A stretch of 64,000 bases of DNA from Gimesia aquarii. GTDB lineage: Bacteria > Planctomycetota > Planctomycetia > Planctomycetales > Planctomycetaceae. Positions within the stretch are counted from its first letter, which is position 1. Every line of letters begins with the position of its first letter. Where the stretch lies: positions 682,001 through 746,000 of the forward strand of contig NZ_CP037920.1 in assembly GCF_007748195.1 (NCBI RefSeq), written 5' to 3'. The notes beneath the pieces are model-generated. The model saw only the letters and a program-made list of their open reading frames with translations, was not told the DNA's origin and did not search any database. The position numbers and the translations under genes are program-made. This document shows, piece by piece, positions 7,235-57,840 of this stretch.

Positions 7235-7267
7235 TACGTTATTTGAATTTATTCAGGAGGCTGGAAG

Positions 7268-10056: not shown

Positions 10057-10134
10057 TGGATGTTGTTAATCCAATCAATGAGAAAGCTTTTGGGCTTCAA
10101 ATTATTTTAATAAAAAGAGACGGAATTATTCATC

Positions 10135-10551: not shown

Positions 10552-10555
10552 TGTT

Positions 10556-10571: not shown

Positions 10572-10658
10572 TCTGTGACAATAAAGATATCTTTTGCTCA
10601 TTCTTCTCATGATGAGCGCAAGTAACTACTCCTCGTTTAAGTACGATGGCAGGTTAGT

Positions 10659-11303: not shown

Positions 11304-11532
11304 GTTGTTTGTCAATGAAGCTTTAAGAGCTCTTTCTTCATCCAGCTTGTGTTAATTTTACACAGCAGTCAATAGTGAACGGAACACCGAAAATTGAATA
11401 TTCGCGATCATCATATCACTAGAGAGTGTTTCTCTATTTCCTCAGGCTTGTGGCTTTTAGTATCATTAGATTCTAAAGCTTTTGCTTTCTGAGATAGTGT
11501 TTCAGAAGACTCTGGTTTCTTTTTTGTATTTC

Positions 11533-13263
11533 ATGATGCACCACCCTTCAAGTCAAATCGAATCTCAAACTGAAGAGGTGGAAGGCCGTTCCAACCTGTT
11601 TCGTATGGTGTTAGAGTCCGTTGTCTCGCTGGCGATTGCAGTGATTCTCTTCAGGACATTTCAAGCCGAAGGATATATGATTTCTACGGGATCTATGGCA
11701 CCCTCCTTGTTGGGTTATCATAAACAGGTGATTTGTCCTCGGTGCGATTTTTCATTTACTTATGGTGTTGCATATGATGATTCCGTTTCAGGGAACCGCT
11801 TTCAGGCAAAAGGGCATTCGGATGGTGAATCATTTCAGCAGGCTGGTCAATATGCGACATGTCCTAACTGTGGTACGCATTCGATAGATTTATCGAATGT
11901 TCCAAGAAACGAAGGTGACCAGCTACTTGTCTTCAAACACGCTTATTATCTAAAGCCACCAGAACGCTGGAGTGTTGCTGTATTTCAAAATCCAATGAAA
12001 CCAACACAAGCATATGTAAAAAGAGTGGTTGGTTTGCCGGGAGAGTCAGTTCAAGTTAGAAATGGTGATTTATATATTAATGGCAAAATTGAGCGTAAAA
12101 ATCTAAAAATTCAACGTGCTGTTCGGTTACTGGTTTATGATCATCACTATCGACCGACTAAGGATGATTTCTTTCAACCGCGTTTACTGCCTGACGAGAG
12201 TGAGTCACCAAATGGGGATCACTTGAGGGGTAAAAGAGCTTGGGTTGCCAAAGAAGATGGTTTTATTTTTGACGAAAATCATGAAAGTTCACAGAATGTA
12301 TCTAGCAGAAACGAATGGGCCTGGGTGAATTACCAACATTGGATACGACAAGGCGGACACTATGTGACATCAGTTTCACTTGAGGAGTGGCCCGCAGAGG
12401 TCGAAAAACCAGAACCGGTTTTAGCGAACATTGAATATGATGAAGAACAAAAAAAATTGATCTGTAAAGGGTCAATGTCGGCAGAGACTTGTCATCGATA
12501 TCTTGATCAAACAGCAAATGAGGAATTCCGTTATGCGATTGCATTACTATATGAAAAATCGCATGTATCTCCTCTCTTTGATGATTATGGTTACAATACA
12601 GGAGTCGAAAATCAACAAGCAATTCCTGTTCACGATGTCATGTTTCAATGTGATTTGAAAGTCAATTCCGGAGTGGGCGAGTTTGCGATTGAAGTTTTTG
12701 AGGGACATCATAAGTTTAGAAATGTTTTTGACTTTCAGCAAAGACGAGTTTCGCTATTTGTAGATGGTCAAAAAAAAGCGATTCGTACTGGCAATCTTTC
12801 CGGTGATTTTCGGACTCGAACCGCATTGCTTGAGATGTCTGTTATGGACCGTCAGGTTTTGTTAGCCATCGATGGGCAATTGGTTTACAAGCCGCTTTTA
12901 TATAGTGAGACCACAACTCCGCGGAAAGAAATTCGTGTACCCGTTCGATTTGGTGCCAATGGGGGTGATTTTTACGTTTCAAATCTAAAACTATTCCGAG
13001 ATATTCACTACGCACGCGGTAAGGCGCTGCATGGTGTCGATGAATCTTATCAACTGGATCACCAGAGTTATTTTGTACTCGGTGACAATAGTCCCGTTTC
13101 ATTAGACAGCCGGAGTTGGTCAGACGGAAAAGTAGACTATAAATACTTACTGGGGAAGCCTTTTTTGGTGCATTTACCCTCACGTCAAGGAGAGGTGAAA
13201 ATCGGAGATCATGTTGGCCACATGCGCATTCCAGATTTCTCCCGAATTCGTTATATTCAGTGA
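11533..13263 (+). CDS. lepB: Signal peptidase I (family S26) with zinc-ribbon and large insertion, copy 1
   Basis: 576 residues from ATG 11533. A TTG 51 bases upstream also keeps the frame open but gives an implausible extra N terminus; no clear ribosome site decides between them. After one membrane helix (about 30-48) comes the catalytic Ser in STGSMAPS (S54) and the general-base Lys in YVKRVVGLPGE (K163). Box E, GDNSPVSLDSR, begins near 517, so the Lys-to-box-E distance is about 350 residues instead of roughly 100. A four-Cys zinc-ribbon (C68, C71, C110, C113) sits directly after the Ser. The later insertion contains a beta-rich LamG/DUF1080-like region (about 365-480). It cleaves signal peptides of exported proteins at the outer face of the inner membrane. 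Confidence 0.88.
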   Translation: MMHHPSSQIESQTEEVEGRSNLFRMVLESVVSLAIAVILFRTFQAEGYMISTGSMAPSLLGYHKQVICPRCDFSFTYGVAYDDSVSGNRFQAKGHSDGESFQQAGQYATCPNCGTHSIDLSNVPRNEGDQLLVFKHAYYLKPPERWSVAVFQNPMKPTQAYVKRVVGLPGESVQVRNGDLYINGKIERKNLKIQRAVRLLVYDHHYRPTKDDFFQPRLLPDESESPNGDHLRGKRAWVAKEDGFIFDENHESSQNVSSRNEWAWVNYQHWIRQGGHYVTSVSLEEWPAEVEKPEPVLANIEYDEEQKKLICKGSMSAETCHRYLDQTANEEFRYAIALLYEKSHVSPLFDDYGYNTGVENQQAIPVHDVMFQCDLKVNSGVGEFAIEVFEGHHKFRNVFDFQQRRVSLFVDGQKKAIRTGNLSGDFRTRTALLEMSVMDRQVLLAIDGQLVYKPLLYSETTTPRKEIRVPVRFGANGGDFYVSNLKLFRDIHYARGKALHGVDESYQLDHQSYFVLGDNSPVSLDSRSWSDGKVDYKYLLGKPFLVHLPSRQGEVKIGDHVGHMRIPDFSRIRYIQ

Positions 13264-13408
13264 CAGTAATACTGGTTATTTTGCAATAAATTCCCTGAAT
13301 TTCATAAAAATATTCATAAATCGATCCTTACAGCGAATAACTGAGACTAACTGAAAATAATCAACCGCAGTCTTAAGTTATCACTGAATTTTTGATAGGT
13401 CGTCTGAG

Positions 13409-15277
13409 ATGGCAAAAAATGTTGAAAAAGCAAAAGCGAAAAAACTCCCCGTAGAGCAAACTGAAGAAAAGAAGGACGAAGGTGAAAAGGCTCGTGGCCG
13501 GCATAATGAAATTCGAGATACGTTAGAGTCGATCATTATTGCGTTAGTATTTGCATTTGTATTTCGTGCTTATTCAGCAGAAGCGTTTGTGATTCCAACG
13601 GGGTCGATGGCACCAACATTATATGGTCGCCATAAAGAATTGAGCTGTGCGGAGTGTGGTGTGAAATACGCGGTGGGCGCCAGTGATGAACTGATCGGAA
13701 AATCTGGGTATTATGATCCAGATAAGAAAGTCACGGGAGCTTATTGCCCCAACTGCCGGTACTATACTAATCTTAGGAATGCGTCTCCATTTACAGGGGA
13801 CCGGATTATCGTCAATAAGTTTCCCTTTGATTTTGGAGATCCTGACCGTTGGGATGTGATCGTCTTCAAGTATCCGGAAGAAGCACAGACGAATTACATT
13901 AAGCGATTAGTTGGCTTACCCGGAGAACAAATTCAGATTTCCCGGGGAGATGTCTACGCTAGAAAAAATGAAAAAGAACCATTTCAGATTCTGCGTAAAG
14001 ACAATTTGGAGAAACAACTGTCAGTTCAACAGTTAGTATACGATGACGATTATCCACCCAGGGAGATCTTAAATTACGATTGGCCTGAGCGGTGGTCACC
14101 CATGGCTCAGGTTTCCCCTAACGAGACGAAGTTCCAGAATTTGAAGAAGTCTGCCTGGGAAATTGATACTGACGCACGTGTTTACCAATTTCAAGGTAGC
14201 GCTCTGGCTGCGGGTATCAGAAATCTTCAATGGTTACGCTACCAGCATATTGTCCCGCGTCAATCAGAGTGGGCACTACTTGAAGAAAATCCAGAACTAT
14301 TCAAACAGACGATGCAGTCATCCCCGCCTCAACCACGTTTAATCAATGATTATACAGCCTACAATGATTATTCAGGTGGATTGTCAAAAGGAAGTTTTAA
14401 ATATGATGCCGCTTTTTGGGTCGGCGATTTGACAGTCAGTTTTGATGTTGAAATTCAGACGGATGAAGGTGAATTTTTCGTTGAACTGATGCGGGGAGAT
14501 CGCCATTATCGGGTACGTTTTGATATCAAGACGGGTCAGGCAAAGTTGTATTATGTAGAAGATTTTCCTAATCCCGAGCCTGTTGAAGTTGAGCTGACAA
14601 CTGTGGAAACGGTTTTAAAAGGGAAAGGATCGCATTCGGTGATGTTTGCTAATGTTGATCAGAGGCTCTGTTTATGGATTGATGGTTCGGAAGTAAGTTT
14701 CGAAAACAAAACGGAATATGAACCGCCGGTTTCTCCTGCACCTCGCGATGGTGATCTCGCTCCTGTAGGAATTGCGGGACTCAATGTTGATTTTGTAGTT
14801 TCTCATTTATTGTTGCAGCGCGATATTTATTATCGTGCAGTTGAGTATTATCAGAATCAGGAATATTCTGGCGATCGGTCACACCTTTGGGAATTACTTT
14901 GGGATCCGGCAGCATGGAGTCGGCAATATGAAGACCATCGTCAACAGGTACGATTTGAGAAATTGTCAGACGATGAGTTTTTCGTGCTGGGAGATAACTC
15001 AGCGCGCAGTGCAGATAGTCGTCTTTGGGATAATAAGCGAAAAGCCGAACGGCGTCACGCAGTTCCTCGCTCTGCCCTGGTTGGAAAAGCGTTCATGATT
15101 TATTGGCCACATGGCATTCCGTTTCTGAATGATGGTCGTGGCTATTCACCTAATGTAGGGCCATTGAAGAGATTTTTCTATCATCAGACTTCGCCAGGTT
15201 CCTATCCCAGAGATCCTTACGCTAAGCTGTCATTTCCGTTTTACCCTAATTTTTCCAGAATGAAACGAATTCGATAG
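13409..15277 (+). CDS. lepB: Signal peptidase I (family S26) with zinc-ribbon and large insertion, copy 2
   Basis: 622-residue paralogue of the preceding gene, same architecture. A charged N terminus leads to one membrane helix (about 40-58), the catalytic Ser in PTGSMAPTLYG (S66), a zinc-ribbon (C80, C83, C113, C116), the catalytic Lys in YIKRLVGLPGE (K165) and box E GDNSARSADSR beginning near 528. The insertion before box E carries a beta-sandwich-like stretch (about 325-470) with motifs such as FDIKTGQAKLYY and LCLWIDGSEV, similar to LamG/laminin-G-like domains. Both catalytic residues are intact in both copies, so both are probably active, perhaps with different substrate sets. The duplication is clearly old, since the two are much diverged. 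Confidence 0.9.
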   Translation: MAKNVEKAKAKKLPVEQTEEKKDEGEKARGRHNEIRDTLESIIIALVFAFVFRAYSAEAFVIPTGSMAPTLYGRHKELSCAECGVKYAVGASDELIGKSGYYDPDKKVTGAYCPNCRYYTNLRNASPFTGDRIIVNKFPFDFGDPDRWDVIVFKYPEEAQTNYIKRLVGLPGEQIQISRGDVYARKNEKEPFQILRKDNLEKQLSVQQLVYDDDYPPREILNYDWPERWSPMAQVSPNETKFQNLKKSAWEIDTDARVYQFQGSALAAGIRNLQWLRYQHIVPRQSEWALLEENPELFKQTMQSSPPQPRLINDYTAYNDYSGGLSKGSFKYDAAFWVGDLTVSFDVEIQTDEGEFFVELMRGDRHYRVRFDIKTGQAKLYYVEDFPNPEPVEVELTTVETVLKGKGSHSVMFANVDQRLCLWIDGSEVSFENKTEYEPPVSPAPRDGDLAPVGIAGLNVDFVVSHLLLQRDIYYRAVEYYQNQEYSGDRSHLWELLWDPAAWSRQYEDHRQQVRFEKLSDDEFFVLGDNSARSADSRLWDNKRKAERRHAVPRSALVGKAFMIYWPHGIPFLNDGRGYSPNVGPLKRFFYHQTSPGSYPRDPYAKLSFPFYPNFSRMKRIR

Positions 15278-15305
15278 TATCTACTGATGTCCAGAAATGT
15301 AGAGG

Positions 15306-15343
15306 AAATCGATATTTAGTAGAATCATCGATTTTACTAGAAT
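15306..15343 (+). repeat. Imperfect tandem repeat and hairpin between lepB copy 2 and lptB
   Basis: Two near-identical units of 17-18 bases, ATCGATATTTAGTAGAAT and ATCGATTTTACTAGAAT, lie end to end. Because ATCGAT is self-complementary, AAATCGAT (15306-15313) and ATCGATTT (15327-15334) can also form an 8-bp stem with a 13-base loop followed by a short T-run. It may be a weak terminator for the signal peptidase gene or a regulatory site for lptB. Confidence 0.35.
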
Positions 15344-15390
15344 GCTTTTAATGCCCCAATAAAGAATGATCGTCAAGGAGGACGTGTGCA

Positions 15391-16173
15391 ATGGCATTGC
15401 TGGAATGTGTTGGTCTGGTAAAAGATTATCCTGGGAAACGCGCCGTTGACGGTGTCGATTTTTACGTGGAACGCGGTGAAATTGTAGGGCTCTTGGGTCC
15501 GAACGGTGCTGGAAAGACAACGACTTTTCGAATGGCATGCGGGATGATTGCTCCTACCAAAGGACGCGTTTATCTGGAAGACACAGATGTGACTTCTTGG
15601 CCCATGTATAAACGTGCTCGACAGGGGATGGGATATCTTCCTCAGGATGAGAGTGTCTTTGTAAAACTTTCTATAGAACAGAATATCTATGCGATTCTTG
15701 AGTTTCTGGACTTAAGTCGCAAGCAAAGACATGAGACGGTAGATCATTTGCTTGATCAGTTTGGACTGACTGCGAAACGAAAGCAGATAGCGTCTACACT
15801 TTCAGGTGGTGAAAGACGACGTTTAGAGATCGCCCGTTGTCTGGCAAGTTCTCCTGAGCTGATTTTGCTGGATGAACCGTTCACGGGAATTGATCCGGTA
15901 ACGATTCATGATATTCAGGACATTATTGCTGATTTACGGGACAGTGGTATTTCAATTTTGTTAACTGACCATCGCGAACGTGAAACACTTACAATTACCG
16001 ATCGCAGCTATATTATTAGTGCTGGTCAAGTGTTGGTAAGTGGAGACGCGGAAACCGTTCTTAGTGATGAATCAGCTCAGGCGTTATACTTTGGTAAGCG
16101 CTTTGACAAAGGATCAATTATTGAAGGTCGTGAAGCCTTTGGTACACGCATCTCAGATCGAGATGCTGCCTAA
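15391..16173 (+). CDS. lptB: ABC transporter ATPase, LptB-like
   Basis: 260-residue ABC ATPase. Walker A is GPNGAGKTT (about residues 35-43), the signature motif is LSGGERRRLEIAR, Walker B is LILLDEPFTGIDP, and the switch His is in LLTDHRERETL. The arrangement and the sequence around the signature match LptB, the ATPase that drives lipopolysaccharide export with LptF/LptG. No lptA, lptC, lptF or lptG is next to it, so partners must be elsewhere, or it serves another export system. A good ribosome site, AAGGAGG (15375-15381), precedes the ATG by 9 bases. Its stop codon overlaps that of the convergent gene by three bases. Confidence 0.82.
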   Translation: MALLECVGLVKDYPGKRAVDGVDFYVERGEIVGLLGPNGAGKTTTFRMACGMIAPTKGRVYLEDTDVTSWPMYKRARQGMGYLPQDESVFVKLSIEQNIYAILEFLDLSRKQRHETVDHLLDQFGLTAKRKQIASTLSGGERRRLEIARCLASSPELILLDEPFTGIDPVTIHDIQDIIADLRDSGISILLTDHRERETLTITDRSYIISAGQVLVSGDAETVLSDESAQALYFGKRFDKGSIIEGREAFGTRISDRDAA

Positions 16174-17273
16174 GCCCTGTTTTCGTAACGACTCGGTTGC
16201 CATTGAATGGCGGCTCTTCCGATACACATGGAATCTGTCAAGCGGTTCATGCAGATTCCCGCAGCCGGCAGAAGAATGACATCGCCATCATTTACAGGAG
16301 CATAGCCATTTGCGTAAACCACTTCCTCAAGACGTGCCAGAATGGTGGGAATCGTAGAAGAAATGGAATTTCCATAGAATGGTAGATTGTTGAGGTAATC
16401 AGCAGTAATCGGGACTTGGCGTGCGGCTGCAATCATTGCTTTCAGTAATTTTCCGCTGGGCTGGTGCGGCGCAATTAAGATCCGGTCTGCTTGCCCTGCA
16501 ACTTGTTCATACGATTTCAAACACGCTTCAAGCATCAGGTCAACACCGTTCAGGAAAACAGACTCACCATCCATGTGCATTACTAGTTTATGCTCAGGAC
16601 GCCCTCGGAAATCAAACATATCTCCTTGCTCAGTCCAGAATAAAGGAACCTCTTGTTTACGGCGTTCTGCAGGAATGTATTCTGTAGATGTTTCTACATG
16701 TAGCAAAGAATGACCGGGACCTTTCCAAAGCGTCGTCCCGGTAGCTCCCGCAGAAACGATTCCACAGAATGCTTTGTCAGACGAATCATGCCAATGTTCT
16801 GGAGTTTCCACAGTGAGTAGGGGAATGTGGACTCTTTCAGGTAGATTTTCTAATAGTTCGGCAGCACGCTTCAGAAGTTCAACAAAACCGACACATCCAT
16901 AGTTTAATGCGATAAATTTCTTAGAAGGTACTCTTAGGATATTTGAAAGTTCGTCACATAATTGCCGGGCAGAATCATGATTTGTATGAGAATGACACAG
17001 CATAATTGCCGGACAGTCTGCCCATTCAAATCCGACAGTCGACTGTAGTTTTTCTGCTATGGCAGCAGCGATGTCTATTGGAGAGAGTTGAGGTTGTAAT
17101 AATCGACGAGTTTCTATACCAGTTGAGCGACTAATTGCCTTAACACTGGAAAAGCCATCCGTTATGCCTTGGTGTGAAAGAGCATAGACACTCTCATTAT
17201 CCAATAGTTCGAAAAGGTCATCATGATCAGCCAGATCTACTATTTCCGTTAGTGCAAATCCATTATTCTGCAT
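16170..17273 (-). CDS. 3-oxoacyl-ACP synthase III-like protein (FabH-like thiolase fold)
   Basis: 367-residue thiolase-fold protein related to ketoacyl-ACP synthase III. The candidate catalytic triad is visible: Cys127 in NYGCVGFVELL, His270 in APHQPSGKLL and Asn302 in YGNSISSTIP, with the expected spacing and order. FabH-type enzymes condense an acyl-CoA or similar starter with malonyl-ACP. The rest of the sequence is far from house-keeping FabH, so a role in a specialised lipid or a related condensation/acyl-transfer reaction is likely. No acyl carrier protein or other fatty acid gene adjoins it. Its 3' end overlaps that of lptB on the other strand, so neither gene has room for its own terminator between them. 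Confidence 0.72.
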   Translation of the reverse strand: MQNNGFALTEIVDLADHDDLFELLDNESVYALSHQGITDGFSSVKAISRSTGIETRRLLQPQLSPIDIAAAIAEKLQSTVGFEWADCPAIMLCHSHTNHDSARQLCDELSNILRVPSKKFIALNYGCVGFVELLKRAAELLENLPERVHIPLLTVETPEHWHDSSDKAFCGIVSAGATGTTLWKGPGHSLLHVETSTEYIPAERRKQEVPLFWTEQGDMFDFRGRPEHKLVMHMDGESVFLNGVDLMLEACLKSYEQVAGQADRILIAPHQPSGKLLKAMIAAARQVPITADYLNNLPFYGNSISSTIPTILARLEEVVYANGYAPVNDGDVILLPAAGICMNRLTDSMCIGRAAIQWQPSRYENRA

Positions 17274-45488: not shown

Positions 45489-46162
45489 ACCCTAGTCGAT
45501 TAATCTTTGGGTAACGAGTGTCTACTTTTTTGTGCTGAATAGATCAGCTTTTCGCGCATATTAGTAAGTACAGCTTCCAATTCTTGATCTATAAGACTCG
45601 AGCAAGGATACCCATCGTATTCCCTTGTGAAAAAGCAGTCTTGGTACAAACGAGTCCAAGGTTATCGCTAGCATAAATTCTGCTATGAATACGATATTTA
45701 TAGCACGGACTCTCGAGATTTCTTCATAAATCCTAAGTACATAGATAATTTAATCTGTCTACCCGTTCCTTCTAATTAGAAGCAATACTGCCCGTGGTGC
45801 GGAGTCACATCTAAGTAGTACTAATTATTCTGAAAACACTCAATTGCAAATTCGTGCATGGAATCTGGAAAAACGCTTCGATCCGTTTTGAGTCGTTCGA
45901 GAATTGTCGTTCAGTCGTCTTCTTACTGTGGGCCAAGGACGAGACTCGGAGAACCCTGTTTGAAATACAGATTGACAGAAATTTTTATTTTTTTCGCAAT
46001 TTCCCCAGTCTCACTTACGTCCAATCTTTCAGACAATGAACGAAAAAAACTATACTGGTTTCTATAAACTCTGAATTTAACGCTTTTTACGCGATCGCCC
46101 TGTTTGCCATCTATTCTCAACCAGATAACAGGGTATTGGACAATGTACAAAAGGTGGGTAGT
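45489..46162. other. 674-base non-coding region ahead of the giant-protein genes
   Basis: This is the longest gap in the window. Short open frames in it (such as 45854-46039) have no protein-like character. No tRNA, no terminator with a T-run and no clear repeat were found. It should contain the promoter and leader of the giant-protein locus; AAGGTGGG (46151-46158) serves as the ribosome site of the next gene. It could hide a small RNA, but I see no evidence for one. Confidence 0.5.
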
Positions 46163-49100
46163 ATGCAATATCTAAGATTGGCACCTCGTTTTTCCCTTTT
46201 TTTGTTTGTAGCAACTACCTTACTTGGACTACCTGAATTCACGCGTGGTCAGACACCAGTTGATGCTGGTAAGCCTGTTCTCAGTACGAAAGACAAAGCA
46301 CCCGAAAAGGAAAATGAATGGGACCATCTGATATATATCCCCTTTAAAAACATTAAGGACGTTTTCAACAAGTCAGAAGCGACCATTTTTATGCCGTATT
46401 TGGAGTATTTAAAACTCTGGTCCCAGTCAGCAGGCATCGGCACTGAAGGTGGTATCAACTTTCCTGTCAAAGCGGTCGTAACAAGTTCTTCTTACACTGG
46501 CACGGTTGAAGAAAACGTAGCGCGTATTCAATGTGATTTAACGATTCAAGTGATAGGGGATCCTTGGGTAGAAGTTCCATTACGTTTTGGAAAAGCTGCA
46601 ATTGGAAAGGTCAGCTCTACGAATTCGAAAGTTTTTTTGCGGGGCACTGGAAATGGAAGTTATGCACTATTGCTCTCTGAAAAAGGAGAGCATCGGGTGC
46701 AGATTGAACTATTAACGCGTGTAAAAAATTCGCCCGAAGGACACAGTTTTCAGTTTGAGTGTCCAACGGTTGGGGTTACAACCTTGGAACTAAAGATTCC
46801 TGAAGCAGATCAAACTGTGAAGATTACCCCCCAACTGGTGCGGCTGCCAATTAAGTCACCTCAAGATGCCACTTTGGTTAAGTCGACATTGGGAGCAACC
46901 AATCAGATTACAGTGCTCTGGTATCCTCGTGAAAGCACAAAGCCAGAAATGGACTTGCTGGCTAGTGTCGAGAATTCTACATTGGTTTCAATTCGAGATG
47001 GTTTAGTCCATACAGAATCATTATTAAAATATGAGGTCCTCAGAGGGGATATGCAAAGTGCACGGATTGCAGTTCCTCTCAAAGATCGTATTTTGGATCT
47101 TTCTTCCTCCAACACCAAAATTAAAAGCTGGGAAATAGAGAAAACAGATAACAAACAAATCATTGCAGTTGAATTCCTCAATAAGTTGCAAAATGGTGCG
47201 CTGATTCAAGTGAATACGGAAAAAGATATTCCAGATGAGCCATTTAACATTCTCGGCTTATCGGAGACAGCAACGAGTGGAATTCATGCACTCGATGTTA
47301 TCAGAGAGAGCGGCCAGATTGCTATTGTCCCCGGAGAAAGTATGACGTTTTCTGTTACTAATACAGAAGGTGTCACTCGCAGTGAAGTTGCAAGTATTCC
47401 CAAGAGTATTCAAAGACCCAACGCCGTTTATTATCGTTTTTTCAATCCCTCAGCAAAACTGCAGATCAGTATACAGCCACTCAAACCTCGTATTTTTGTA
47501 AATCAGTTGACCGAGTGTTTTTTCGGTGAAGATGAAATTCGAGTGCGAGCACAACTAGACTATGACATTCAACGAGCGGGTATTTTTTCGTTTCAGTTAA
47601 AAGTTCCAGAAAAATTGGTCATTGATTCTGTAAATGTGGCTGGCCTGAAAGAATATAATTTTGATAAGAAAACGCGGCAGTTAACGGTTGCCTTGCTGCA
47701 AAAATATCAGGGGAAATTGAAACTACAGATTCGTGCGCATCAGGATTTCAATAAAGGATCGCAAGAATCAAAAGTCAATGTTCCATTACCGGAGCCAATC
47801 AACGTTGAGCGGGAGACAGGTCAAGTTGCCATTTATGCTCCCGAGTCAATGGAGTTGATTATTAGAAATCAGGATGTCGTTGGTGCGCAGCCTGCCACGT
47901 ATTCGAACCCAAGAATTACCAAGACTTCATTAGCTTCTGCTTGGGATTATAATCGTCGTCCAGTTGAGATTCCGGTTCAGATTCAAATTAAGCCAACACG
48001 ACTGGTCGCAGATGTTGCAACCAGTATCGAAGTCAAAGAACAAATTGCCGAAGTACTCAGCAGAATTGATTATCAGGTTCAATATGCCGGAGTGGATACT
48101 TTTCGTTTCGCTGTTCCTGAAGCAATTGCTGATCTGATCCAGATTCGATCTTTATCACCGGCTCCAGCACCATCCATCAAGCAGAAAAGTCGTGCTGAAA
48201 AAGCGGTTGAAGGTTGGGTTGTCTGGACTGTAACAACGCAGAGAAATGTCCAAGGCCGTTATTCACTCGAAGTACGTTATGACATTACATCAGGTTTGTT
48301 AGCATCTGCGGCAAAGCCAGATTCTGAAGCAGAGAATACAGACAAAGAAAAGAATGAAGCATCAAAAGCGGAAACAGGAGATATGTTGCTGGATAAGATC
48401 GCTTTACAACCATTGAAAGTATTAGGGTTAGAAAAAACGAATGAGAATCAGCGTTCGCGCGATGTTCCTCTGGCAAGGGTTTACGGTGAAATTGCAGTTC
48501 AGAAGTCGAGAACGCTTTCTGTTTCGACTTCAAATCTGGAAGAGCAACTGGATCCAATTGACATCCGCGAATTGAAATTATTACCGAAGGAAGGTTTTTT
48601 AGCGTTTCGTTATTTTAGTCAACCGGTAAGTCTGGAACTCATATCTACGAGACACAAAATTCAGGAAGTCGTAGAAACGATTATTATGAAATCTCTGGTT
48701 GAGGTTGTTGTGACTAAAGAAGGGCGTTCAACTTATCGTTGTCGTTATTTGATGAAATCAAGTGAAAGACAGCAATTAAAAGTGGCTTTGCCAGAAAATA
48801 TGGAACCGTTAAGTATTACTGTAGCCGGTCAACCAGTTCCTTTGGAAAAAGATGAGCAAAGTCAAAGTGAAGATGGTTGGTCAACGTTTTTTATTAACGT
48901 TGCCCGAGACCAGTCTTCAGATCAACCTTTTTTGATCACCTTATTATTTACAAAATCTGTTCCCAGGATTACAGAATCATTTGGTGGTAATTTAAAATTG
49001 CCCTTGCCACTTTTTGGTGGAATCGATGGTGAAAATGTTGTCGTTCAGCAATTGAAAACAGCAATTTGGGTACCTGATCAGTATACCTTGGTTGGTGTGG

Positions 49101-49663
49101 CTGATGAATTTGAGCCCGATGACCAGGTTTTTATATCTGGAATCATTCCTGGGAGAGGGGGGATTCAGGCATCAGGAACCGATTTTGATTCTTGGATTGG
49201 GGCTTCCGGAGGAGCCTTGGTGGATTTTCCCACTGAAGGCCGTGTGTTTTCTTATACGCGATTGGGAGACAGTCCTGAAATCAGTGTTTCCTGGTGGAAG
49301 CTTTCCTTTTCTACCTGGGTCTTGAGTGGTGCCCTAATTGCGATTGCCTTCGTCATGCGAAAAAAGACTTGGGAAAATAAGCTCGCTCTGTTGATCTTTT
49401 TAATATTTATACTTGCGATTTACTCAATAACTGATGCAGACAAAGTGCTGGTTGGTGTTTATGCCGCGCGTTTTGGAATTGTCGCAATGCTTAGCCTCTG
49501 GATTTTGTATGCTTTCGCAGGATTGCGGGCTGGAAAGAAACTTTCGTCAGGTGCAGTAATCCAACATAGTTCCAATATAGATGGCAGTGGTCATTCAGCC
49601 GCTGTGATTCCACCTCCGGGTATATTTGATGAATTTATGCAAAATCAATCTGGTAAAAAATAG
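46163..49663 (+). CDS. Giant exported beta-rich protein with C-terminal membrane helices (module copy 1)
   Basis: 1166 residues from ATG 46163. A signal peptide (about 1-32, ending TRGQ) is followed by a motif block IYIPFKNIKDVF (I57-) and MPYLEYLKLW (about 77-86), then roughly 950 residues of repeated beta-strands with few cysteines. The C terminus has three membrane helices (about 1052-1068, 1077-1092 and 1098-1125) and a short polar tail. The same motif block and the following strand pattern recur twice in the next gene, so these are homologous. No known domain recognised. Most of the chain would be in the periplasm or outside, anchored to the membrane at the C-terminus. Confidence 0.8.
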   Translation: MQYLRLAPRFSLFLFVATTLLGLPEFTRGQTPVDAGKPVLSTKDKAPEKENEWDHLIYIPFKNIKDVFNKSEATIFMPYLEYLKLWSQSAGIGTEGGINFPVKAVVTSSSYTGTVEENVARIQCDLTIQVIGDPWVEVPLRFGKAAIGKVSSTNSKVFLRGTGNGSYALLLSEKGEHRVQIELLTRVKNSPEGHSFQFECPTVGVTTLELKIPEADQTVKITPQLVRLPIKSPQDATLVKSTLGATNQITVLWYPRESTKPEMDLLASVENSTLVSIRDGLVHTESLLKYEVLRGDMQSARIAVPLKDRILDLSSSNTKIKSWEIEKTDNKQIIAVEFLNKLQNGALIQVNTEKDIPDEPFNILGLSETATSGIHALDVIRESGQIAIVPGESMTFSVTNTEGVTRSEVASIPKSIQRPNAVYYRFFNPSAKLQISIQPLKPRIFVNQLTECFFGEDEIRVRAQLDYDIQRAGIFSFQLKVPEKLVIDSVNVAGLKEYNFDKKTRQLTVALLQKYQGKLKLQIRAHQDFNKGSQESKVNVPLPEPINVERETGQVAIYAPESMELIIRNQDVVGAQPATYSNPRITKTSLASAWDYNRRPVEIPVQIQIKPTRLVADVATSIEVKEQIAEVLSRIDYQVQYAGVDTFRFAVPEAIADLIQIRSLSPAPAPSIKQKSRAEKAVEGWVVWTVTTQRNVQGRYSLEVRYDITSGLLASAAKPDSEAENTDKEKNEASKAETGDMLLDKIALQPLKVLGLEKTNENQRSRDVPLARVYGEIAVQKSRTLSVSTSNLEEQLDPIDIRELKLLPKEGFLAFRYFSQPVSLELISTRHKIQEVVETIIMKSLVEVVVTKEGRSTYRCRYLMKSSERQQLKVALPENMEPLSITVAGQPVPLEKDEQSQSEDGWSTFFINVARDQSSDQPFLITLLFTKSVPRITESFGGNLKLPLPLFGGIDGENVVVQQLKTAIWVPDQYTLVGVADEFEPDDQVFISGIIPGRGGIQASGTDFDSWIGASGGALVDFPTEGRVFSYTRLGDSPEISVSWWKLSFSTWVLSGALIAIAFVMRKKTWENKLALLIFLIFILAIYSITDADKVLVGVYAARFGIVAMLSLWILYAFAGLRAGKKLSSGAVIQHSSNIDGSGHSAAVIPPPGIFDEFMQNQSGKK

Positions 49664-49749
49664 TCCAGTAAATATTGGTAAGACCTGACCTTGCATATAT
49701 GTGGCGTTGTTGAGTGTTTTAAAAGACTAACTGTGAGCGACTAACTTCA

Positions 49750-52700
49750 ATGGGGTTCGCCATGATTTCGAATTCGACAAATTCTTCAGAACATAAAACG
49801 ATTCCCCGGCAGCGTATTCGGTATAAAAGAGGTTTGCTGTTCTGGTCAGTCTGTTGGTTGAGTATGTCTGTCTGCATGAATTCAGTTTTGCAGCAGACTG
49901 GGTTGGCGCAGAAGCCCGTTGCTCACAAAGAAGCCTCCAATTCTGATCAGAAAAAATGGCCGAAGACGGCTGTTTATATCCCCGTCGATGAGTTAGATGC
50001 ATTGTTGATGCGCGATCGTAGTGGTGTGCTCTTACCACGTACCCAATATGAGGCATTAAAAAAACAAGCTAAAGTTAACTCTGACGGTATTGTTCTCCCG
50101 AATTCGAACATCATCATTCATGACGCTACTTATCAAGCAACGGTCTCTGATCGCCAATTAATGATCGAAGCAACGATTTCAATTCAACAGTTTCAACAAA
50201 AACTAACTGTAGTCAATCTACCCTTGCATGGTTTGGCGGTGGAATCTGCTATGTTAGATCAACAGCCAGCAATGATCGCACGTTCGTCAGGAAAAATTGA
50301 TTTACTTCAGTTATTCAGTCAACAACAAGGTGAACATCAACTTGTAATAAAATTGTCGGCTCCACTGAATTCTGTTGGCAGCGATCAAGTTGCGCAGTTT
50401 CGACTCTTGCCAAACGTAGCCAGCCGCTTCAAATTGGAAATGCCTTCAAATCAATATTTGATCGTAAATGATTTAAAGTTGAAACCATCTACTAAGAACA
50501 AAAAAACGGGTTATGAATTTCCAATTGGCGGTACTGGACAAGTCAATTTAAAGATAACAGAACAAACACATGAACAGACTAACGATTCGTTGGTTTTTGC
50601 CCGAAGTGCAATTGGTGTGTCGGTGAGTCCAGGGAAAGTCGCCTGGCAGGCGCAGACGGCATTGAGTATCTATGGGCAATCACTTGATCAAATCATTTTT
50701 AGTGTTCCTCAGTTTCTGGAAATTGTGAGTGTGGAATCAACGGGACTTGAATCTTGGGAATTAAACGATAGTGTTAAAGACCAGCAGAGAACCGAAATCA
50801 CTTTGAACTATCGCCAACCGATTGAAGGTGAGCGGCAAATTATCTGTCGTGGCGTCATGACTACAAAAACGGATCAAGCGTGGAACGTTCCAGACCTCCA
50901 TATTGAAAAAGTGAATTCCCATGTTGGTTCAGTTTTAATTCGATATCCTTATGGAGTTCGTTTACAAGTTGAAAATACCGATAGTGTAAGACGCCGTGTT
51001 ATTAAAAATTCAGCAAATATGAAAAAGGCAACTGAACGTTCGGTGAATAGCCCAGGGATGGACTTTGATTTCTGGCAGCAGATGTTTGACATAACCTTAG
51101 TGACACAGGAAAAACGGTCCGAAGTTCAGATGGCGGCTTCAACAATTGTTGAAATCAATGAGCAGGGTCTGAATTTGCAATTAGTGACGACTGTGGAAAG
51201 TTTGTTTGCGCCACTCTTCGAATTTCAAATGCATATTCCCGCTGAATGGACAATCCTCGGAGCGACCATACAAAACCAGAATGCCAATTGGAAAGAATCA
51301 TCCAGAGAAGCAGGTAGCAAATTGATTCGGCTACCATTCGTCAAAGCATTACCTGCGAATACTGAAGCTAAAGTTGTGATTCTCGCTCATCGTGATCTGG
51401 AAAACTGGCCTCCTGATTCTGGTAGTCAATTACTGGAATTACCCAAAATTGAATTACCCCAGGCGAAAATATTGGAAGGGTCTATCATCATTAATGCTGA
51501 CAGTGATTGGGATCTGGTTCCCAGCGGATTGACGAATTTAGAGCCGATGCAGGAACGAATTTCTAAAATGCGTTTTGGGTATCAGTATCAGGACAATAAC
51601 TATAAAGGGAGTTTGACAGTTTCTCGAAAGCCGCTTCAGTTAGCTGCACATCACCTACAATATGTAAGACTAGACCAAACTACCTTTTTCTCTCATTTTG
51701 AAACGACTCTCAATGTGGAGCGGGGTAGCTATCGAAAATTAATGGTAGCACTTCCGGAGAATGTCGGAACCGATCTTCAGTTTCGACTAATGAAAACAGA
51801 CGGAAAAATCATCGAACAAGTGGCTGATAAACCACAGAATGGCCTGCGCGTCTGGACTCTCAAAATGGACCGACGTTTAAGCGGGAAGCAAATTTTAGTT
51901 GTCACAATAGAACAGCCTCGAAAAGAAGGCGAGATTGTCACTATCCCTCAATTACAAATCATGTCCGCCGATAGACAATATGGTGAGGTCGCTTTTGAAG
52001 CTGAAGGGGATCAGCGTTTGAGAATCCAAACAATAGGCCTGCGAGGACAACCTTTAACGTCAATTGACGCAGCTGAACTACAATTACCTGTATCGTATTG
52101 GTCTCGTGAACGGATTGTGGCAGCGTATCGATTTGTTGGAGTTGGTCATCAAATTCAAGCTGAAGAAACTCGCTTCAAACAAACGGTTGTACCTACAGCA
52201 ATAGCACATCAGCTTGCTCTAAAAAGTTTACTGGGACATGCGGGTGAAGTCCAAAACGAAGTATTACTCTCATTTTCTGCTGTTGGGATCCAATCTTTGA
52301 AAGTCGCTTTACCAGATCAGGCTCTCTTATTGTCTGCTCTGGTAGATGGAATTCCTGTGGAAGTTCGTAATACGGGCAAGGCTTTTATCATTCCGGTTGC
52401 CTCCGGTAGTCAAAGTGCTGGGACTCGTACTTTGAAGTTATTGTATGATGTGAATCAAAGGCCTTTAGATCAAACACAACAGTTTTCTCAGTCACCACCT
52501 CAGGTTGCTGTTGTAGATGGAGCGGGACAGACTCAACCTTTGGAAATTTTAAATCAATCATGGTCTGTACTTTATCCAGATGAGCTTTTAATCACAGAAA
52601 GTAAAGGAGACTTCATACCTGCCAAACCGTTAGTCCGACCTGGCATGCTGGAGAGTATTCGTCGGCAACTTTCCCTTCTCTCGCCGCGCCAAATGGTAGG

Positions 52701-55700
52701 CAGGTTTTTCATGCTCTTCTTTATTTGCATAGCGATTTTGATTTGTACCTACTGTTTTCGTAGAGGGGGTATCTCTGGTATGGCATTTCTGATCGGCGGG
52801 TTCTGTGTGTTGTTTCTGATGATTTTATTATTAATGCCGGCATTAAATTCGAAACGTGCATTGGTTAGAATTTCTTCATCACGAAATCTGCAGGAGCAAC
52901 CAGGGCAAGCCGCCGCTGCATATAGTTCTGATGATGGCTCAGAAACTGATGGTTATTATCTTAAAGACAAAATGGAAATGATTCCGAATGTTCAAGATGG
53001 GATCGAAACCGAGAGTATGGGCCGATCGCGAGTTAGTGGAGTGACGGAAAGAGCTGAGAAAGCACTGGGGCTCAAGCGGAATCAACCACAGTTGGCTGCA
53101 CCAATGGACCAACCTTCTCTGGCAAAAAGTCCTCAAGGTGTGAGAAGTCATGCCATCAGTGGTGTTCCTAAATCACAACTTCCAGAACCATCTGCGTCTA
53201 TTGAGATAGAGGGGAAACTCGGTGGACTTGGTGGGGGTGCATTACCTGCTGCAGAGACTCCTGCTGCACCGAAAGAGCAGTCGAAAAATGACTTCGTTGC
53301 CGGATTTGAATCACCGTTGCCTGCAAGAACATTAGGCGGGCGTTTGTCTGTTGTTGCGCCATTACCAGAACCAGTTGGGTTCCACTCATTGGCATTCCAA
53401 TATTATGGAGCACCTCGGCAAGAACCATTGTCTCTTAGCATTTCATTACAGCAGTTACAACGAAGTAGGCGATTTTGCCTGGCTGTGATTGCAGGTCTGC
53501 TTTGGCTGAGTTGGTTATTTCGAGGGATTTCCTGTAGACGAAAGCTGGCACTGGTAATCTTTGGGATTTTACTTCCTGTTACCTGTAGCGCGCTTGTCTC
53601 AGTCCAGTATCAATCGTTACTGGATGGTGTCTTTTGGGGATCAATCCTTGCTAGTATTCTGTGGAGCCTCGAGTGGTTCTATCAGCGGCTTCGGTCTGAG
53701 ATTAAAGCGCTCCTACATTCGACTGATAAACAGGCAACCGTTACATCGTTGATTTTGTTGGGATCTTTCTTATGTAGTCCAGAAGCTGTTTTTGCACAGA
53801 ATAAACCTGTAGTAGAGCCCAAACTGCCTCAGAACCTGGTGATTCCCTATGAAGTGGGGAAAGATCCCTTGAGTTCGCAGCGGATCTTTCTCTCACGTGA
53901 AGAGTTTATCAAGCTCTGGAATGAAGCCCACCCTGATCAACGGATGAATCAAGAGTCTGAATCAGGGGGTGTTATTAGCCAGGCACTTTACTCGGCTAAG
54001 GTTAAGGCGGGAGCAGAAGCGGGACAAGCAATTGTGCATGTGAAGGGCCGACTGGTAATCCACACAATTGGTAATCAACCGGCGACGCTACCACTTCCTC
54101 TGGGAGAAGCAGCAATCAGTAGCGCACTTCTGGACGGGAAATCGGCGACAATTTTAGTTCGTCAAGCCAAAGCCAAAAAAACAAGGTTAGAAAACGTTTA
54201 CTCTATCATGATCTCTAAGCCAGGCTTACATCTGTTGGACCTGGAATTTGATCTTCCTGCACGGCAGACGGGAGTCACTGGCAGCTTCCGAATTAGTTTG
54301 CAACCGGTTGCCAGCGGAAGATTCACTCTGGAACTTTCTGACAAAGACTCACAAATCAGCATCACAGGTTCGAGAGCCTCTTATCGAAAGCAGACGCTTT
54401 CAGGAAAAACAACATTGGAACTTCCCATCGATCAGGGAGGCACAATCCAATTTGCCTGGAGACCTGCGGAAGAACGTGGAGCAATTCAAGGGATTGTGCA
54501 ATGCAAGTCGACTCAGGCAACTGTTGTTCAAGATGCTGGTCTGGTGTTGCGCAACGAATATGATTACCGCGTTCGTCAAGGAGAAATAAATCAGGCCAGC
54601 TTGAAGATTTTTGAAGGTTTACGCATCCAGTCAATCTATGGACCAGATGTCGGAGGCTGGGAAATGGTTGGCACCGGAGAAGAACGCCGCGTTAAGGTTT
54701 TTTTACGACGAGATATTAAGGGTTCAACGAAAATCAATATCGTCGCCTTTCATCCGTTGTCAGTTAGCAAACAATCCCGTGTTGTTAATATACCTCAAAT
54801 TGCACCTGAAAATATTACCAATGAAACAGGCACTGTCGGCGTGTATGCGGAATCACAATTTCAAATTCGTCCAGAGGAAATCGCTGGTGCAATTCAAATT
54901 GATGTTGGACAATTTAAAAACCCTGCGACGTCTTCACCTGCTTTGAAGGTTGCCGGTCAGGTCTTAAGACCGCAATGGGCTTATCGTTTTTCTCGACGTC
55001 CATTGACTTTTCGCTTTTCTGTTTCTCGTCGACAGCCTGAAAAACTGGCAGTGGCCGAACATGCGGTTTTAGTTTCTCCTCGAAAAATGAGCCTTTCCAG
55101 TCGAGTGAAGTATCAATTAAAGGGAACGCCTGAGTCAACATTTGTAATTGAACTCCCAGAAACGTACCTGATTTTAAACGTGAATGCTGAAGAATTGGAT
55201 GACTGGTATGTCATTGAACAAAACGCTGATGATATGCGGGTTTTGGTTCTTGAATTTAAAGAATTGAAAACAAATCAAGTAGAAGTGGTCTTTGATGGCG
55301 TAATCCCTCGAAATGCAAACAAACTTGAAGCAGAAGTGATGATGCCGACACCCTTGGAAGTTTCATCTATACGTAGCGATCTCGCTATCTGGTGTGATGA
55401 TTCTTTACTGGCAAGTGCGCCGGAATTAAAAGACTGGCGATCGATTTCACCTGAAGATTTATCAGCCGAACTAAAAGAGCAGCAACCTCGATTGCCTCAG
55501 TTTGCTTTCCGTTCTACAGCTGAATTACCAGAGTGGATCAATTTGGAATTGTCACCCGCTCGGCCGATGGTCACTGCTAATTCTCTGGTTATGACGACTG
55601 TAGGTAATGTTTCAGTGAGTTATACAGTAGGAATACGTTGGATGATTCAGGGCGCTGCCACCGATGTATTCTCGTTTACAACTCCCGCATGGCTGGGGGA

Positions 55701-57840
55701 ACAGCTTGATTTTCGAGGAGAATCCATTCGTCAGGTAGATAAGAAAGTGATTGGTGGTGCTGTCGTCCAATGGACGATCTATTTGCAGGATTCCGTTGAA
55801 GGTTCGTACTTCATTACGGCCGAATCGACTTTGTCTCCCCCTGATTCCGGTAAAATTGAGATCCCACAAGTACGCGTAATGGATACCAGAGGCAATGTTG
55901 ATCCTCAAACAACGGAATTAGAAACTCAACAACATTTTCTGATGCTCGTAAATCACTCATGGGCACGACTTTCTTTATTGAATCAAGACAGTATTGCCCC
56001 AGTTGAGCGTCAGGAAATGCCCTTAGTGATCAATGATTCTCTTGCGAATCAGGCGATGGAGTTAGCACGCATTATCCGCAACCGTAAACCACCGATTTAT
56101 CAGATACAACAGTTTCAGGCAGATCAGGGAGCTGCCGCTGCAGTAAATCTGGCAGATTTGACCACTGTTTTGGCCAATGACGGAAGCTGGAAGACTCAGG
56201 CTGACTATCGAATACGAAATCGTTCGCGACAATTCTTGGCGATTCGACTTCCTGAAAAAACACAGGTTTTGAGTGCTTTTGTCAAAGGCAGACCAACGGC
56301 TCCCGTCCTGTTAAAACCTGATGCGCAAAACAAAGAGACTAAAAAAAATCTCATTTATCTAGTTGCCTTACCTAAGGCGAGTGCGGCTGATCTATCATTT
56401 TCGGTGAAGTTGATTATAGCAGGCCGTTTAGCACAACCATTGTCCCAAAGCACACTCCGATGGCAGGCACAACTAGTTGATATGCAGCCTCCGCAGGTTG
56501 TTGTCCCATCCGAAAATGCAGACTATGGAATTCCAGTGGCGCAGACCAAATGGACAGTGTATATTCCCAATGACTATACTGCGACAGCACTGCTGGACGA
56601 TCCACGTACTAATATGATTCCTATCAAGAATAGTCGCTCTTACTCTTCCGGTGGTCTCGATATTTCCAATCTTGCCAAAGACGTTGACAATTTATACTCC
56701 GTCTATAGTGGTAGTAAGAGTAGTCGTGTTCGAAGTCGAGTGATCAAAAATCTCAAACGATTGGAAGAGGGATTGAAAAATAGGCCAAGTTCGGAAATGG
56801 GACAAGGACAACAAGGCCTGCAAATCAAGCAAAAGATTGGTGAAATTCAATTGAGAGAACAACAGCGTCAGGCACAGCAGGAAAAATTATTTGGTAATTC
56901 CAGAGATATGAATGGCGATGGGCAAGTTGATTTTGATTCCGATGAAACATTTAACCAGTTAGTAATTGGTAATAATGCAGCTTTATTTGAAGCGAATAAG
57001 GGAGTTACTTTTCAAAAAAATGTGAAGGGTAAAACAAAAACTTCCGCAGGGGATCTCTCCGGAAAGTCAAGACTTTCAAAAGAAAAAGCTGAATTAAGAG
57101 GCTTTTCTTTTCAAAGGGAATTAGACAAAAAAGGTGCCAAGAAGAAAGCCACCAGTAAGCCCGTTGACAGTCGCGCACTCAGGCGAAAGCAAAGTTTTGA
57201 AAATGCCGCTGGGCAAATCCAGTCCCCATTTGGTCTTCCTCAACAGCAAAGTGCAGAACCCAATGCTTCAACTCCCCGGTTCAATGATCAAGTTCGTTCT
57301 GAAAAGTTGTCTCAAAAAGGTAAAAGTGATCTTTGGATGCAGCTAAATGAAGTGGAAGAATCACTGGCAGATGCGAAATCTCCAAATCTGAGCTTTGGTA
57401 GTAATTTTTCTGGTTTAGAGCGTGAAGATATTCTTAACCGATCAATGGATACCGAAAGCCGTGGACAACAGGCAGGTTGGACACAGGCAGGGGGAATTTC
57501 TCTGAAGTTTAATCTCCCCATTCACGGCCACAAACTTGAGTTCACAAAAATCAACGGGCAGCCTAAGTTGGCACTTAGTTTACGATCTGAAAATACGTAT
57601 GAAATTGGTTCTGCTGTACTTTGGACTTTGATTTGGGGGCTGATTTTGCTTGCATTGATCTGGTACGGATTTCGTTTTTCTCAGTCAGAGATTGCACAAG
57701 TTCGGTTAGGTGCCATACTGATTCTGATCGGTTTAGCTGGTTGGTTATTCCTCTCCGGAGTATTAGCAATTTTCGGCATGGTATTCTTTCTCACTGGCTC
57801 AATCTGTCTTGCCTACCGGTATGTGAGGCGAGCTACTTGA
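49750..57840 (+). CDS. 2696-residue giant exported protein: two fused copies of the same module family
   Basis: Signal peptide near residues 28-50, then module A (about 70-980) starting with VYIPVDELDALL (V75-). Two membrane segments (about 986-1006, 1011-1034) are followed by a polar, Gly/Pro/Ala-rich stretch (1040-1235), then three to four more membrane segments (1242-1345). The last of these ends in an Ala-x-Phe-Ala|Gln site (near 1349) like a signal-peptidase site. Module B (about 1360-2610) begins with VIPYEVG and RIFLSREEFIKLW. Near its end are a coiled-coil-like region and an EF-hand/dockerin-like calcium loop DMNGDGQVDFDSDE (2386-2399). The C terminus has two or three helices (2617-2690). 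A single continuous frame; no known family recognised beyond similarity to the preceding gene. Confidence 0.82.
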   Translation: MGFAMISNSTNSSEHKTIPRQRIRYKRGLLFWSVCWLSMSVCMNSVLQQTGLAQKPVAHKEASNSDQKKWPKTAVYIPVDELDALLMRDRSGVLLPRTQYEALKKQAKVNSDGIVLPNSNIIIHDATYQATVSDRQLMIEATISIQQFQQKLTVVNLPLHGLAVESAMLDQQPAMIARSSGKIDLLQLFSQQQGEHQLVIKLSAPLNSVGSDQVAQFRLLPNVASRFKLEMPSNQYLIVNDLKLKPSTKNKKTGYEFPIGGTGQVNLKITEQTHEQTNDSLVFARSAIGVSVSPGKVAWQAQTALSIYGQSLDQIIFSVPQFLEIVSVESTGLESWELNDSVKDQQRTEITLNYRQPIEGERQIICRGVMTTKTDQAWNVPDLHIEKVNSHVGSVLIRYPYGVRLQVENTDSVRRRVIKNSANMKKATERSVNSPGMDFDFWQQMFDITLVTQEKRSEVQMAASTIVEINEQGLNLQLVTTVESLFAPLFEFQMHIPAEWTILGATIQNQNANWKESSREAGSKLIRLPFVKALPANTEAKVVILAHRDLENWPPDSGSQLLELPKIELPQAKILEGSIIINADSDWDLVPSGLTNLEPMQERISKMRFGYQYQDNNYKGSLTVSRKPLQLAAHHLQYVRLDQTTFFSHFETTLNVERGSYRKLMVALPENVGTDLQFRLMKTDGKIIEQVADKPQNGLRVWTLKMDRRLSGKQILVVTIEQPRKEGEIVTIPQLQIMSADRQYGEVAFEAEGDQRLRIQTIGLRGQPLTSIDAAELQLPVSYWSRERIVAAYRFVGVGHQIQAEETRFKQTVVPTAIAHQLALKSLLGHAGEVQNEVLLSFSAVGIQSLKVALPDQALLLSALVDGIPVEVRNTGKAFIIPVASGSQSAGTRTLKLLYDVNQRPLDQTQQFSQSPPQVAVVDGAGQTQPLEILNQSWSVLYPDELLITESKGDFIPAKPLVRPGMLESIRRQLSLLSPRQMVGRFFMLFFICIAILICTYCFRRGGISGMAFLIGGFCVLFLMILLLMPALNSKRALVRISSSRNLQEQPGQAAAAYSSDDGSETDGYYLKDKMEMIPNVQDGIETESMGRSRVSGVTERAEKALGLKRNQPQLAAPMDQPSLAKSPQGVRSHAISGVPKSQLPEPSASIEIEGKLGGLGGGALPAAETPAAPKEQSKNDFVAGFESPLPARTLGGRLSVVAPLPEPVGFHSLAFQYYGAPRQEPLSLSISLQQLQRSRRFCLAVIAGLLWLSWLFRGISCRRKLALVIFGILLPVTCSALVSVQYQSLLDGVFWGSILASILWSLEWFYQRLRSEIKALLHSTDKQATVTSLILLGSFLCSPEAVFAQNKPVVEPKLPQNLVIPYEVGKDPLSSQRIFLSREEFIKLWNEAHPDQRMNQESESGGVISQALYSAKVKAGAEAGQAIVHVKGRLVIHTIGNQPATLPLPLGEAAISSALLDGKSATILVRQAKAKKTRLENVYSIMISKPGLHLLDLEFDLPARQTGVTGSFRISLQPVASGRFTLELSDKDSQISITGSRASYRKQTLSGKTTLELPIDQGGTIQFAWRPAEERGAIQGIVQCKSTQATVVQDAGLVLRNEYDYRVRQGEINQASLKIFEGLRIQSIYGPDVGGWEMVGTGEERRVKVFLRRDIKGSTKINIVAFHPLSVSKQSRVVNIPQIAPENITNETGTVGVYAESQFQIRPEEIAGAIQIDVGQFKNPATSSPALKVAGQVLRPQWAYRFSRRPLTFRFSVSRRQPEKLAVAEHAVLVSPRKMSLSSRVKYQLKGTPESTFVIELPETYLILNVNAEELDDWYVIEQNADDMRVLVLEFKELKTNQVEVVFDGVIPRNANKLEAEVMMPTPLEVSSIRSDLAIWCDDSLLASAPELKDWRSISPEDLSAELKEQQPRLPQFAFRSTAELPEWINLELSPARPMVTANSLVMTTVGNVSVSYTVGIRWMIQGAATDVFSFTTPAWLGEQLDFRGESIRQVDKKVIGGAVVQWTIYLQDSVEGSYFITAESTLSPPDSGKIEIPQVRVMDTRGNVDPQTTELETQQHFLMLVNHSWARLSLLNQDSIAPVERQEMPLVINDSLANQAMELARIIRNRKPPIYQIQQFQADQGAAAAVNLADLTTVLANDGSWKTQADYRIRNRSRQFLAIRLPEKTQVLSAFVKGRPTAPVLLKPDAQNKETKKNLIYLVALPKASAADLSFSVKLIIAGRLAQPLSQSTLRWQAQLVDMQPPQVVVPSENADYGIPVAQTKWTVYIPNDYTATALLDDPRTNMIPIKNSRSYSSGGLDISNLAKDVDNLYSVYSGSKSSRVRSRVIKNLKRLEEGLKNRPSSEMGQGQQGLQIKQKIGEIQLREQQRQAQQEKLFGNSRDMNGDGQVDFDSDETFNQLVIGNNAALFEANKGVTFQKNVKGKTKTSAGDLSGKSRLSKEKAELRGFSFQRELDKKGAKKKATSKPVDSRALRRKQSFENAAGQIQSPFGLPQQQSAEPNASTPRFNDQVRSEKLSQKGKSDLWMQLNEVEESLADAKSPNLSFGSNFSGLEREDILNRSMDTESRGQQAGWTQAGGISLKFNLPIHGHKLEFTKINGQPKLALSLRSENTYEIGSAVLWTLIWGLILLALIWYGFRFSQSEIAQVRLGAILILIGLAGWLFLSGVLAIFGMVFFLTGSICLAYRYVRRAT

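Follow-up and report, generated by a model that had tools for sequence, protein, structure and literature searches.

Tandem copies of the beta-sandwich fold found in the N-domain of M1 aminopeptidases (M1-N) have so far been known from a eukaryotic translocon-associated protein. Ribophorin I (Ost1 in yeast) carries exoplasmic tandem domains of this kind behind a signal peptide and has a C-terminal membrane anchor, which is a single helix. A different type of precedent is provided by FbcH, the cytochrome b/c1 precursor of Bradyrhizobium japonicum. Here one gene encodes two exported membrane proteins, which are split at an internal signal-peptidase site located behind transmembrane helices. Neither the M1-N/Ost1 fold nor an internal signal peptide as such is new.

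Planctomycetes have unusual envelopes, and most of their large exported proteins lack annotation. The locus of Gimesia aquarii described here combines features of the systems above: two adjacent genes encode three homologous exported modules, two of which are joined in a single open reading frame (ORF) that probably gives rise to two proteins.

The locus and its two genes

The window analysed is a stretch of 64,000 nucleotides (C1:682001-746000) from a single-contig genome of 7.40 Mb. The features of S and L described below lie on its forward strand. The first gene (46136..49663) encodes an exported protein, S (module 1), of 1175 residues if translation starts at a TTG codon or 1166 residues from an alternative ATG at 46163. 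The second (49750..57840) encodes L, a predicted polyprotein of 2696 residues in which an N-terminal half (LN) is fused to a C-terminal half (LC). Orthologues of S are present in all members of the genus listed and in most genera of the family. Loci in relatives carry labels such as L173 or L104, while L051 is a paralogous locus in the same genome.

Scans of S and L against Pfam, NCBIfam and PHROGs gave sub-threshold matches to helices only, and no family. Scanning the locus for promoters and terminators gave a signal no higher than that of shuffled sequences. The neighbours of the pair in the window are a TolC-type OEP, an HTTM protein and a metal-dependent hydrolase (NF001911; 57902-58600, 62 bp downstream of L on the same strand), whose linkage to L is kept in the genus only. 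An operon of S and L with these neighbours was rejected because the flanking genes are conserved within the genus only.

Homology of the three modules

A sequence-only reading of this locus had proposed that S and the two halves of L are homologous, citing short motifs at the start of each and hydrophobic segments towards their C-terminal ends. The motifs are present, and the homology extends far beyond them. With BLASTP, S matches LC with an E value of 4e-16 (19% identity, spanning 926 residues of S) and LN matches LC with an E value of 1e-8. Profile-profile comparison with hhalign, using 17 orthologues for each module, gave collinear alignments with a probability of 100 for S and LN (E 4e-58, 957 columns), S and LC (E 2e-62, 899 columns) and LN and LC (E 1e-58, 913 columns). 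Controls with reversed or column-shuffled profiles gave probabilities of less than 5.

Each module can also be aligned to itself with a shift of about 178 residues, so that all three consist of domains repeated in an array. The membrane segments at the C-terminal side can be paired in the same way (S 1000-1101 with LN 1182-1291, and S 1000-1093 with LC 1241-1345, equivalent to L 2571-2675), so that the hydrophobic segments correspond to a helical anchor common to the modules. Each module has the same layout: a signal peptide, a tandem beta-sandwich array and a C-terminal three-helix anchor.

Fold of the ectodomains

The S ectodomain (residues 108-1055; 46457..49300) is a series of tandem M1-N/Ost1-like beta-sandwich domains, as judged from AlphaFold2, VIA-align and the internal repeat detected by hhalign. 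That of LC (module 3; residues 1350-2340; 53797..56769) was assigned by AlphaFold2, VIA-align (Z 11-14.6) and hhalign, and that of LN (module 2; residues 60-975; 49927..52674) by hhalign. The AlphaFold2 model of S, built with 43 orthologues, has a mean pLDDT of 78 and shows a chain of beta-sandwiches ending in a helical anchor. The model of L residues 1331-2420 (29 orthologues, pLDDT 80) is again a beta-sandwich chain.

Three parts of the S ectodomain were matched to known folds (residues 108-265, 274-652 and 844-1055; VIA-align Z 13-14.5). For example, residues 108-265 match PepN (Z 13.5, rmsd 3.1 over 152 residues) and residues 274-652 match human ribophorin I (Z 14.5, 325 aligned). LC includes M1-N-like domains at L 1404-1573, 1574-1761 and 1763-1936 (model residues 74-243, 244-431 and 433-606). 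Singly, these three match the M1 aminopeptidase N-domain with Z 11-12, and a pair of LC domains matches yeast Ost1 with Z 14.6 (316 aligned). The overall rmsd of the ribophorin I/Ost1 matches is about 20 Å because the domain orientations differ. Integrin alpha ectodomains are also among the Foldseek matches of both the S and LC models, with an rmsd of 20-40 Å, and alpha-2-macroglobulin is a weak match (probability 0.33-0.38). According to the models, S and LC are built of repeated M1-N/Ost1-type beta-sandwich domains. Structure prediction of each module had been suggested as a check of their common origin; the models cover S and LC, in which the domain fold is the same.

Such a fold represents a structural likeness and not a functional assignment, since neither HExxH nor GxMEN motifs occur in S or L and a search of the genome for STT3 (PF02516) gave no match, while four archaeal controls were positive. 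A catalytic M1 peptidase is ruled out by the absence of both motifs from S and L, and an Ost1-like glycosylation partner is disfavoured in a genome without STT3. A search of PDB sequences with the S profile returned chance matches only; sequence searches miss relatives that are visible by fold alone.

Signal peptides and membrane segments

The predicted N-terminal signal peptide of S (residues 10-38; 46163..46249) ends between TRG and Q, as judged from the sequence, the alignment and a simple site rule, and the protein terminates in a three-helix membrane anchor (residues 1056-1132; 49301..49531) identified by hydropathy and from the model helices. L starts with its own signal peptide (49750..49908), with a site between GLA and Q after residue 53 (sequence and site rule). 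At the end of the LN ectodomain there are two extra transmembrane helices (residues 982-1029; 52693..52836; hydropathy), which are conserved in relatives. These are followed by a three-helix anchor (residues 1242-1312; 53473..53685) defined by hhalign, hydropathy and comparison with relatives, and homologous to the C-terminal helices of S. Hydropathy places its helices at 1242-1260, 1267-1285 and, more weakly, at about 1290-1311, the last being the counterpart of the third helix of the S anchor. LC ends in a membrane anchor at residues 2619-2692 (57604..57825; hydropathy, and hhalign to the S anchor).

Because five helices follow the exported LN module, the chain would be back in the cytoplasm before residue 1331, and the positive loop YQRLRSEIKALLHSTDKQ agrees with this placement. 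This topology depends on the number of helices being odd, which is probable but not certain because the fifth helix is weakly hydrophobic. With this likely count, L resembles FbcH in that an odd number of helices precedes the internal signal peptide.

An internal signal peptide in L

The predicted internal signal peptide of L occupies residues 1331-1349 (53740..53796). It has the sequence SLILLGSFLCSPEAVFA and is followed by QNKP; signal peptidase I is predicted to cleave after the codon that ends at 53796, between this position and 53797. An alanine is found at position -1 in 29 of 29 L proteins of the family in the alignment. The signal is also present in all 20 of the phylum-level or paralogous L proteins inspected, which belong to many families; for a few of these the segment was read by eye as the automatic pick was wrong. 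For example, the L' protein of the paralogous locus in the same genome carries such a segment, ...TTARLFFFIILSLTATVYA, followed by QSLP, as do L086 and L088. In the L protein of the relative L190 (L190:5465-12016, reverse strand) the internal signal ends in a lipobox-like LPGC; the second protein would in this case be a lipoprotein.

Cleavage sites were scored with a simple hand-made rule, not with SignalP, but the segments compared all come from one set of proteins. The internal signal of the 29 L proteins has a mean score of 7.57, with 76% at 7 or above, and their N-terminal signals a mean of 7.72, with 90% at 7 or above. In contrast, the eight helix classes in L score between 4.95 and 6.2, with 3-41% at this level. 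The 12 residues upstream of the internal signal have a net charge of +2.4 and its h-region includes about 15 residues. It lies immediately ahead of the '(I/V)(Y/L)(V/I)PY' motif that opens module 3, and the N-terminal signals in S and LN are placed in the same way. The YIP/VIP motif (VIPY/VYVPY) cited in the sequence-only reading is, from this position, the mark of the start of the predicted mature protein.

Separate genes, a split gene and phylogeny

In two genomes from different planctomycete families, S, LN and LC are three tandem genes, each ORF starting with a signal peptide. In L173 these lie at 3333-6719, 6709-10422 and 10470-13886, and in L174 at 3912-7520, 7520-11779 and 11837-16249. 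The best profiles for the three products are, in order, those of S, LN and LC (484, 372 and 374 bits in L173; 436, 342 and 291 bits in L174). In a third case, L104, a repeat-rich insertion of about 240 bp with a stop codon (L104:17950-18260) splits L exactly at the boundary between the anchor of LN and the internal signal, which is found near the start of the downstream ORF (...MRWLPTLSSLCLFAFLVANSAFA, followed by Q). The separate genes and the split indicate that the covalent link between LN and LC is dispensable.

A FastTree phylogeny of the ectodomains forms for the most part three clades, S, LN and LC, each including the family of the window, phylum-level relatives, the separate genes and the paralogous S'-L' pair. 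The exceptions that fall outside the expected clades are LN of L185 and both halves of L182, and several of the deep supports are low. From this three-clade tree, the triplication appears to be older than most of the diversification of the phylum and than the split between the two paralogous systems. Profiles, tree and fold together strongly support the duplication of an ancestral exported, membrane-anchored protein that had been proposed from the sequence.

The conserved internal signal peptide, the separate genes in two families and the three-clade phylogeny lead us to read L as, probably, a fusion of two proteins separated by signal peptidase. The 'giant protein' of the sequence-only reading is probably the wrong picture of this ORF of 2696 residues; its product is probably a polyprotein of two proteins, given the conserved internal signal and the halves that are separate in two relatives.

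Distribution, paralogue and gene context

Modules of the S type occur in 94 of 294 evenly sampled Planctomycetota genomes, and 88 of the 294 have matches to the LC profile. The sequence-only reading had suggested a search for the gene pair in other planctomycetes, and S and L do recur together across the phylum: where the flanking sequence is long enough, the two are neighbours at almost every locus. They often overlap by 4 nucleotides, which in several relatives points to coupled translation. Nearly every genome whose contigs are complete has L as one ORF.

There are variations on this arrangement. Two loci (L111:7631-11143 and L129:5595-9047) have S with no neighbouring L although the contig continues. 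At L201:1394-16721 there are three consecutive family ORFs of 1210, 2714 and at least 1186 residues, an order that would place an S-type gene on both sides of L.

The genome also includes a second, diverged pair, S'-L' (L051:1-9394; C1 5.900-5.909 Mb), with an S' of 1171 residues and an L' of at least 1960. An inositol monophosphatase gene lies directly upstream of S' (L051:9556-10341), and the same order is seen in L073 and L081.

In some distant relatives the system is preceded by regulatory or vWA genes. The pair lies directly behind genes for an ECF sigma factor and a zf-HC2/vWA-YfbK protein in L183 and L187, and directly behind a vWA-YfbK protein gene in L184, L185 and L190. A VIT-vWA protein is encoded directly before S or L in L098, L111 and L178 (in L178 with zf-HC2). 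This sigma/vWA linkage is seen at only about nine examined distant loci and not in the family of the window; around the pair in the window, neighbours are conserved within the genus only.

A proposed polyprotein and its alternatives

The explanation that we favour, and consider reasonably likely, is that the locus specifies three paralogous envelope proteins from two genes, with L being an LN-LC fusion cut by signal peptidase I, and that these form a complex anchored in the inner membrane. S, LN and LC would each be exported by a signal peptide to form a long periplasmic rod of tandem M1-N/Ost1-fold domains, held in the cytoplasmic membrane by the C-terminal helical anchor. The second gene would have arisen by fusion of the LN and LC genes with retention of the LC signal peptide. 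L would be exported as a precursor, the LN helices would return the chain to the cytoplasm, and the internal signal would restart export of the LC part. Signal peptidase I would then cut after AVFA (residue 1349), freeing the LC N-terminus, Q1350, and the cleaved signal would stay behind as the last helix of LN. A single precursor cut in two would supply LN and LC in a 1:1 ratio. Finally, the three proteins would assemble into an elongated complex; that they do so together is probable from their synteny. We infer the cleavage of L, the co-assembly and perhaps a scaffold or sensor role, to which only the ECF sigma and anti-sigma/vWA genes ahead of the system in distant relatives point.

Alternatively, L could be a true giant protein in which the internal segment is an uncleaved signal anchor threading the second module back to the periplasm, so that LN and LC remain one covalent chain. 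That L is one ORF in nearly every genome with complete contigs would fit this, and a fusion kept over most of the phylum could mean that the link matters. However, an anchor does not need a conserved AxA-type site combined with a short h-region, and such a site is missing from the other helices of L; the link can be dispensed with, as the separate genes of L173 and L174 and the split L of L104 show, and L190 has a lipobox-like LPGC instead. We regard an uncleaved L as rather unlikely.

Other alternatives concern function. Export, large size and arrays of beta-sandwiches would be appropriate for a surface adhesin or an S-layer-like coat, as would the integrin alpha ectodomains among the Foldseek matches of both models and the VIT-vWA or vWA neighbours in distant relatives. 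The three-helix anchor nevertheless looks like one of the inner-membrane type and not like an outer-membrane or cell-wall anchor, Pfam and NCBIfam reveal no adhesion, S-layer or sorting domain, and integrin matches with so high an rmsd reflect generic beta-sandwich arrays. Such a role, raised as a guess in the sequence-only reading, remains a guess, and an improbable one. It is more improbable still, to the point of being very hard to credit, that S, LN and LC descend from M1 peptidases and have lost catalysis, or that they are ribophorin I/Ost1-like partners in a protein-glycosylation complex. Although the best fold matches are to ribophorin I/Ost1 (Z 14.5) and to M1 aminopeptidase N-domains (Z 13.5), S and L have no HExxH or GxMEN, the genome has no STT3 catalytic subunit where archaeal controls are positive, the S profile finds only chance matches among PDB sequences, and a shared fold shows no function.

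If the favoured polyprotein is correct, a giant bacterial ORF encodes a precursor cut by signal peptidase, and the size of the proteins here cannot be read from the length of the ORF. It would be worth seeking internal signal peptides in other giant bacterial ORFs. S, LN and LC in any event form a clear three-component family that has no Pfam or NCBIfam model and is found in about one-third of the sampled Planctomycetota genomes. More tentatively, and with somewhat less confidence than we would need to favour it, the system may be an envelope machine, found throughout the phylum, that consists of three rods of M1-N/Ost1 fold which are ancient paralogues. Two of these rods would be produced as a polyprotein and set apart by signal peptidase I, and some members of the phylum would control the system through ECF-sigma/anti-sigma-vWA proteins. 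Both the protein family and the envelope complex would then be new, and an entire bacterial phylum would make use of a polyprotein strategy.

Comparison with known systems

The sequence-only reading knew of no described system of this composition, and our literature searches agree: those on planctomycete giant proteins, internal signal peptides, fbcH, Ost1 domains and ECF/vWA found nothing on an S-L system. The main text of a cell-biology paper on P. limnophila (PMC5394234) mentions neither giant proteins nor signal peptides. As far as these searches reach, the fusion of paralogous Ost1-fold rods into one polyprotein throughout a phylum is undescribed.

The three modules share with ribophorin I/Ost1 the tandem domains, the signal peptide and the C-terminal anchor. 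Ribophorin I/Ost1 is, however, eukaryotic and part of an STT3 complex, has two domains compared with about five here, and shows no sequence similarity to S detectable by profile search of PDB sequences. The N-domain of M1 aminopeptidases (PepN, LTA4H, ERAP1) resembles a single domain of S or LC, with an rmsd of 3-4 Å over about 150 residues, but S and L lack the catalytic domain and the zinc motif, and in these proteins the domains are repeated. ECF sigma/anti-sigma-vWA (YfbK-type) and VIT-vWA sets are found directly upstream of some distant relatives of S-L; they are absent at the window locus, and S, LN and LC themselves include no vWA or VIT domain.

The closest parallel for the organisation of L is FbcH. 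L has a predicted internal signal-peptidase site behind transmembrane helices, and its halves are separate exported proteins in L173 and L174 and are split in L104. FbcH differs in that its proteins are unrelated and its cleavage is a precedent for one that in L is predicted; the halves of L are paralogous to each other, and their arrangement extends across a phylum and two paralogous systems.
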